Positions 15,417 through 63,346 of a stretch of 64,000 nt of DNA are shown here, in pieces. Each line of letters begins with the position of its first letter. Within the stretch, counting starts at the first letter, position 1. The DNA is taken from assembly GCA_030612765.1 (NCBI GenBank), contig JAUWNG010000002.1:1-64000 (forward strand), read 5' to 3'. The notes under the pieces were generated by a model. The model was not told where the DNA came from. It searched no databases and saw nothing but the letters and a program-made list of their open reading frames with translations. This DNA is from Planctomycetota bacterium (GTDB taxonomy: Bacteria; Planctomycetota; Planctomycetia; Pirellulales; Thermoguttaceae). The translations under genes and the position numbers were made by a program.

Positions 15417-15544
<128 letters not shown>

Positions 15545-16799: not shown

Positions 16800-16958
16800 G
16801 GTTTGCGGCGCCGCTGGAGCAACTGAGTTTAGTAGTTTCAAGTTCTTGTGAGATTTGGCGTTCGTCGTTCTGAGCGTAGCGAAGAATCTCCTTGGCTGCC
16901 GATATCCTTCGCTACGCTCAGGATGACTTGCTGAGGGAAAAAACCAGGAGTCGGAGAC

Positions 16959-20065: not shown

Positions 20066-22675
<2,610 letters not shown>

Positions 22676-42682: not shown

Positions 42683-42779
<97 letters not shown>

Positions 42780-45145: not shown

Positions 45146-45273
45146 CAGCCCGTGGAAAAAGGGTGCCACGGCTGGCTGGGCCAGCAGTGCATGGGGAAAA
45201 CTCCCGGGAAAACACTGCTGGACAAGCCAGCAGTGGCACCCAAACTCCCAAATCCGACTTTTTCAACGGGCTG
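45146..45273. mobile_element. 128-bp MITE-like element, family A copy 3 (CTAA duplication)
   Basis: CTAA at 45142-45145 and 45274-45277; same ends. Confidence 0.88.
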
Positions 45274-45366: not shown

Positions 45367-45740
45367 ATGTGTAAGAGTTTACGTTTCATCGGCTTGGATG
45401 TCCACAAGGATTGTGTGCGGCCAGATTTTCTGGCAGGTTCGGTCATTCTGAGCGCAGCGAAGAATCTCGCCGACGCTGCCGGAAAAGCGAGATTCTTCGC
45501 TGCGCTCAGCAGTGACAAAAATGGCATAGCCGCCAGAAAATCTTGCCACACACCAAGGATTCGATCTTGATTGCCGTTGCCGAGGCCGGACGCGAGTCGG
45601 CGTATGTGCATGGTGAGATTGCCAACGACTGGGGTATTTTCGGAAAAACGCCGAGACGCTTGGCGAAAGGCCGCTTACTCCAATGCTGCCATGAAGCCGG
45701 GCCTTGCGGATATGCCCTCTGCCGAAAGATGAAAAAGGAC
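45367..45740 (+). pseudogene. IS110-family transposase N-terminal fragment, interrupted by a 141-bp palindromic element
   Basis: RFIGLDVHKD (45367-45411) continuing as SILIAVAEAGRESAYVHGEIANDWG..HEAGPCGYALCRKMKK after the insertion. Confidence 0.8.
45413..45553. mobile_element. 141-bp MITE-like element flanked by 8-bp CAAGGATT duplication
   Basis: CAAGGATT at 45405-45412 and 45554-45561; ends GTGTGCGGCCAGATTTTCTGGCAGG / GTGTGTGGCAAGATTTTCTGGCGGC (inverted, 21/25). Confidence 0.8.
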
Positions 45741-46040
45741 GGACAACGGAACGTGCAACGGCGAGGCCGGAAGGAGGAATCCTCGCCCCCGGCTATTTGT
45801 ATGGCGTCGGCAGTGCAACAGCGGCTGTACCCCCTCCGTGGCGCTGTATTGCTGCGAACATGCGGCATTTTCCGCATTTCCGCCTCCTCGACCGCGATTG
45901 GTAAAGTGGAAATTGCTGGAAAAATTTGTCGCTTCCGTGGATAATAAGGGTTCAGCCATCCGCGGAGTTCGCGTGGGACAGGTTGGCAACCTGTCCTACA
46001 AAGGGCGAAGGACAAATCAGTACAGCAGGTTGTTGCGACA

Positions 46041-63221: not shown

Positions 63222-63346
63222 GTAACCGTTCACGGGGCAACCGTCATTCTGAGCGTAGCGAAGAATCTCGTACGAGATCGCGGCGCATGCGAGATTCTTC
63301 GCTACGCTCAGCAGTGACGATGTTTTCCCTACCCGTGAATGGTTAC
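63222..63346. mobile_element. 125-bp MITE-like element between rplL and rplJ, 9-bp duplication GTATTCATG
   Basis: GTATTCATG at 63213-63221 and 63347-63355; ends GTAACCGTTCACGGG / GTAACCATTCACGGG (inverted); internal TTCTGAGCGTAGCGAAGAATCTC inverted pair. Confidence 0.85.

Follow-up and report, generated by a model that had tools for sequence, protein, structure and literature searches.

Results

The window, that is, the whole stretch of 64,000 nucleotides analysed, carries on its forward strand the remnant of an IS110 transposase gene, within whose N-terminus lies a non-coding element of 141 bp. The part of the remnant preceding the insertion (MCKSLRFIGLDVHKD) spans positions 45367 to 45412 and was delimited by protein alignment; the part past the insertion, found by tblastn, runs from 45555 to 45746. 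The element occupies positions 45413 to 45553, with no strand assigned to it, and lies between the two copies of an exact 8-bp duplication, CAAGGATT, of which the left (45405 to 45412) and the right (45554 to 45561), both on the forward strand and based on sequence and flank comparison, start 149 bp apart. An earlier note on this DNA had placed the two copies, and a 141-bp element between them, at these very positions, and they were found there. The repeat finder delimited 22-bp terminal inverted repeats, the left one (GTGTGCGGCCAGATTTTCTGGC) at 45413 to 45434 on the forward strand and the right one (GTGTGTGGCAAGATTTTCTGGC, read on the reverse strand) at 45532 to 45553, which are complementary at 20 of 22 positions (91%); if they are lengthened by eye to 25 bp, 21 of 25 positions pair, the same as had been reported for imperfect inverted ends of that length. 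Much of the middle of the element is occupied by a palindrome with perfect 23-nt arms (left arm, 45448 to 45470, forward strand; right arm, 45487 to 45509, reverse strand; 100% complementarity according to the repeat finder and folding), so that a single strand folds as one long hairpin, with a fold z-score of -9.6 as DNA, relative to dinucleotide shuffles, and of -10.6 as RNA. At 141 bp, the element is too short to accommodate a transposase gene. Its matches in Rfam were confined to microRNA hairpin families, far below the gathering scores, and were taken as hairpin noise. The window also harbors a repeat of about 128 bp with CAGCCCGTTGAAAAAG ends, one copy of which (45146 to 45273) precedes the IS110 remnant by some 100 bp, the others being located at 15417 to 15544 and 20557 to 20684, with single ends at 42683 and 52669.

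Once 149 bp are removed, ...GLDVHKD continues in the same frame into SILIAVAEAGRESAYVHGEIANDWG (the joined flanks read MCKSLRFIGLDVHKDSILIAVAEAGRES...), in keeping with the frame restoration claimed earlier. Since a Pfam search with the short joined IS110 N-terminus gave no match, the frame was compared by means of tblastn and pairwise BLASTP. With the flanks joined, a Sphingopyxis IS110 transposase (residues 1 to 79) aligned in a single segment that is ungapped at the junction (E = 2.6e-16; 47% identity); with the insert left in place, the alignment of the same protein to the window falls into two pieces. The flank-joined frame was also matched by 684 plasmid records, and for 670 of these the match extended over 80% or more of the frame. 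Together with the Sphingopyxis alignment, these matches bear out the empty site at the protein level, against IS110 transposases that lack the insert. Similarity covers approximately 79 of the 371 residues and stops at about position 45746, which agrees with the downstream truncation that had been described for this IS110 copy. Given its location within a transposase gene, the 141-bp segment might be regarded as native to the IS110 lineage, for instance as a regulatory or RNA-coding segment. However, the IS110 transposase aligns fully without any insert at that place, the plasmid records match the frame in its flank-joined form, and the same element is found elsewhere at unrelated loci. The copies at unrelated loci, together with the IS110 alignment restored by joining the flanks, refute a native origin, to which we attach a negligible probability.

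The genome from which the window derives (G000; 3.97 Mb in 228 contigs, about 88% complete) contains 13 full-length copies of the element, in addition to several partial ones, and further copies were detected in a genome of the same genus (G002). The copies measure 139 to 141 bp, occupy unrelated loci and, for 15 of them drawn from both genomes, align with a mean column identity of 95%. Among 16 copies with both ends, exact duplications of 8 bp (n = 7), 9 bp (n = 3) and 7 bp (n = 1) flank 11, and a clean duplication is absent in the other 5, while in a control, in which left flanks were matched at random with right flanks, none of 20,000 mismatched pairs had an exact 7-9 bp duplication. Because it is multi-copy, and because 11 of the 16 copies display exact duplications as opposed to none of the 20,000 control pairs, the 141-bp element is a MITE. 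The 13 full copies in G000, the majority of which have 7-9 bp duplications of their own, uphold, along with the inverted ends and the 8-bp duplication, the transposition footprint with precise borders that had been put forward. Judged by eye from the reading frames of joined flanks, the insertions mostly look intergenic or near gene starts. Two half-copies, one in each genome (G000:C40 and G002:C60), have flanking sequence in common, implying that part of the MITE family is older than the split of the two species. Unpaired ends in G000, on contigs C8, C50, C149, C155 and C192, turned out to belong to partial or longer non-autonomous derivatives devoid of a transposase. Elements of 336-338 bp with the same type of ends, likewise without a transposase, were seen at L153:2196-2533 (G000:C156) and L223:1010-1345 (G002:C153); no target duplication was seen at either, and they are perhaps longer non-autonomous relatives.

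The arms of the core palindrome are not confined to this family. A second MITE family of similar size (124-126 bp), with GTAACCGTTCACGGG ends and a duplication that is 9 bp where exact, is built around the same arms; its terminal repeats, in contrast, are unrelated to those of the 141-bp MITE and similar to the ends, GTAACCGTTCACG, of a complete IS66-family element of G000 (L160). One 125-bp member of the second family lies within the window at 63222 to 63346, with the same core palindrome arms and the 9-bp duplication GTATTCATG. At about 16841 to 16930, the window displays the core palindrome between other flanks (AGTTCTTGTGAGATTTGGCGTTCG), and at L017 (G000:C14) the left part of the 141-bp MITE family is joined to the flanks of this 16841 to 16930 copy. 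The 27-nt core arm, GTCATTCTGAGCGNAGCGAAGAATCTC, further occurs in 46 stretches of viral-collection contigs of varied origin (L334 to L379), as a single arm in 45 of 49 occurrences. Within PLSDB plasmids and INPHARED phages no copy of the MITE was found, the only matches being to a 26-bp core piece, which is present exactly on the Calothrix plasmids AP025020.1 and AP025021.1. A full-text literature search for the core arm strings retrieved no paper. The association of one palindrome with ISKra4-type and IS66-type ends, and the chimera L017, could mean that the core is a separate module that MITEs with unrelated transposase systems have recruited, perhaps since the hairpin itself aids the spread of the element, protects it or makes the host tolerate it, a suggestion that we regard as tentative and rather doubtful.

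The presence of the core in many places without the MITE ends, and of its arm in varied contexts, could also be taken to mean that the core is itself the mobile unit (REP-like or another palindromic element), with the outer ends as passengers. Against this, it is the GTGTG ends, rather than the core, that the duplications directly flank. Moreover, elements with the same type of ends and 8-bp duplications, of which that of G042 has one mismatch, were identified in three further genomes (G007, G042 and G071), where they enclose different palindromic cores with an equal duplication length; a matching end was also present on one Sedimentisphaerales contig (L140). As like ends with 8-bp duplications surround differing cores, the transposition unit is defined by the ends and not by the core, and a mobile core is already largely refuted and, in our view, very improbable. 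In G071, a MITE end on contig C113 adjoins an ISKra4-family gene; it faces away from the gene, and this locus was rejected as an autonomous copy.

A degenerate end pattern was run over 397 genomes of the order and led to a multi-copy element in G372, the left end of which runs into an ORF; its right end was located on another contig, next to the C-terminus of a transposase. With the protein encoded by this ORF as query, complete elements with both ends were recovered from G350 (1,594 bp), G371 (1,595 bp) and G398 (1,558 bp), several copies in G350 and G371 being flanked by exact 8-bp duplications. Their transposases matched NF033572 (ISKra4 family; E values of 1e-36 to 1e-41), with scores that fall under the NCBI curated cut-off of 205 bits, and also PF06782. 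A query made by joining both ORFs of the G372 element with a guessed residue had no match in ncbifam or in the plasmid tblastn, and no conclusion rests on it. In the likely partner elements, the transposase is encoded by two ORFs, with ORF2 shifted to the +1 frame relative to ORF1. At L249:1477-2962, L253:1492-2971 and L235, the two ORFs of the ISKra4-family transposase overlap, and the overlap features a run of T followed by C, a potential slippery site.

The right end of the MITE matched both G372 ends at 19 of 22 positions, a match that is not independent, as this element was picked first by its ends, which moreover lie on different contigs. The elements of G350, G371 and G398, having been found via protein similarity and not via their ends, provide an independent test: the MITE right end matched the right ends of G350 and G371 at 16 of 22 positions, and the MITE end of G071 matched these same right ends at 18 of 22. 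Weaker matches to the MITE ends were recorded for the left ends of G350 and G371 (12-14 of 22) and for the ends of G398 (13-15). In 20,000 trials, composition-preserving shuffles of the MITE right end scored no higher than 15/22 with any of ten IS ends. From the end sequence, the duplication length and the existence of such elements in related genomes, we infer that the transposase moving the MITE is probably an ISKra4-family enzyme (p-MULT 4, Mutator superfamily), and that the MITE would be mobilised by it in trans.

It could be argued instead that some other family (IS66, IS256, ISL3 or IS1595 type) supplies the transposase for the MITE and that the likeness to ISKra4 ends is coincidental. 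Transposases of these four types likewise produce 8-9 bp duplications, and G000 itself yielded, in place of an intact ISKra4-family element whose ends match, just a C-terminal fragment of this family on contig C204, lacking such ends. This absence is not firm, given an assembly of about 88% completeness with breaks at repeats. On the other hand, the end match to the ISKra4 elements found by protein lies above every shuffle, and the complete IS66 element of G000 has ends of the GTAACCGTTCACG type. Furthermore, the search for other partner families, which covered IS66 (PF03050) and DDE_Tnp_1 (PF01609) loci in the five MITE-bearing genomes, showed no end pairs of the right type, and these two families were discarded as partners. 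A mover from another family is improbable on our reckoning, and an ISKra4-family transposase remains the preferred candidate.

Discussion

Overall, the data are best read as a MITE that was inserted into an IS110 remnant by a DDE transposase, most likely of the ISKra4 family, and whose hairpin core displays no coding function that we could see; we assign to this reading a probability of about 0.88. The transposase would recognise ends of approximately 22 bp, GTGTG(C/T)GGC(C/A)AGATTTTCTGGC, cut the target in a staggered manner, 8 bp apart, and insert the element, and repair of the staggered cut would then give rise to the 8-bp target duplication. Insertion of the MITE along these lines corresponds to what DDE transposases do. 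The transposase itself would come from an ISKra4-family element acting in trans. 

The family resembles the bacterial MITEs reviewed in PMC10969869 in being short, non-coding and multi-copy, in its inverted ends, target duplication and hairpin, and in its mostly intergenic location, but differs from them as a new sequence family; the text of that review contains neither the word ISKra4 nor planctomycete. With the ISKra4 family (p-MULT 4, consisting of the ISAzba1, ISMich2 and ISKra4 groups; PMC3942029), which is recorded in Planctomycetes among other phyla, it shares the 8-bp duplication, and its ends are similar to those of ISKra4-family elements in related planctomycete genomes, although the MITE lacks a transposase. 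Unlike the ISMich2 group, in which the two transposase ORFs are joined by a -1 frameshift (PMC3942029), the elements described here have ORF2 in the +1 frame relative to ORF1, and no subgroup of the ISKra4 family is assigned to them.

These results define a precisely bounded MITE family of the Planctomycetota and point to a likely transposase family as its partner, to the benefit of annotation. They also indicate that ISKra4-type ends are borne by short elements with differing cores in several planctomycete genera. Conversely, the finding of one core palindrome in MITEs with unrelated ends is unexpected, and poses a testable question on the role of the core.
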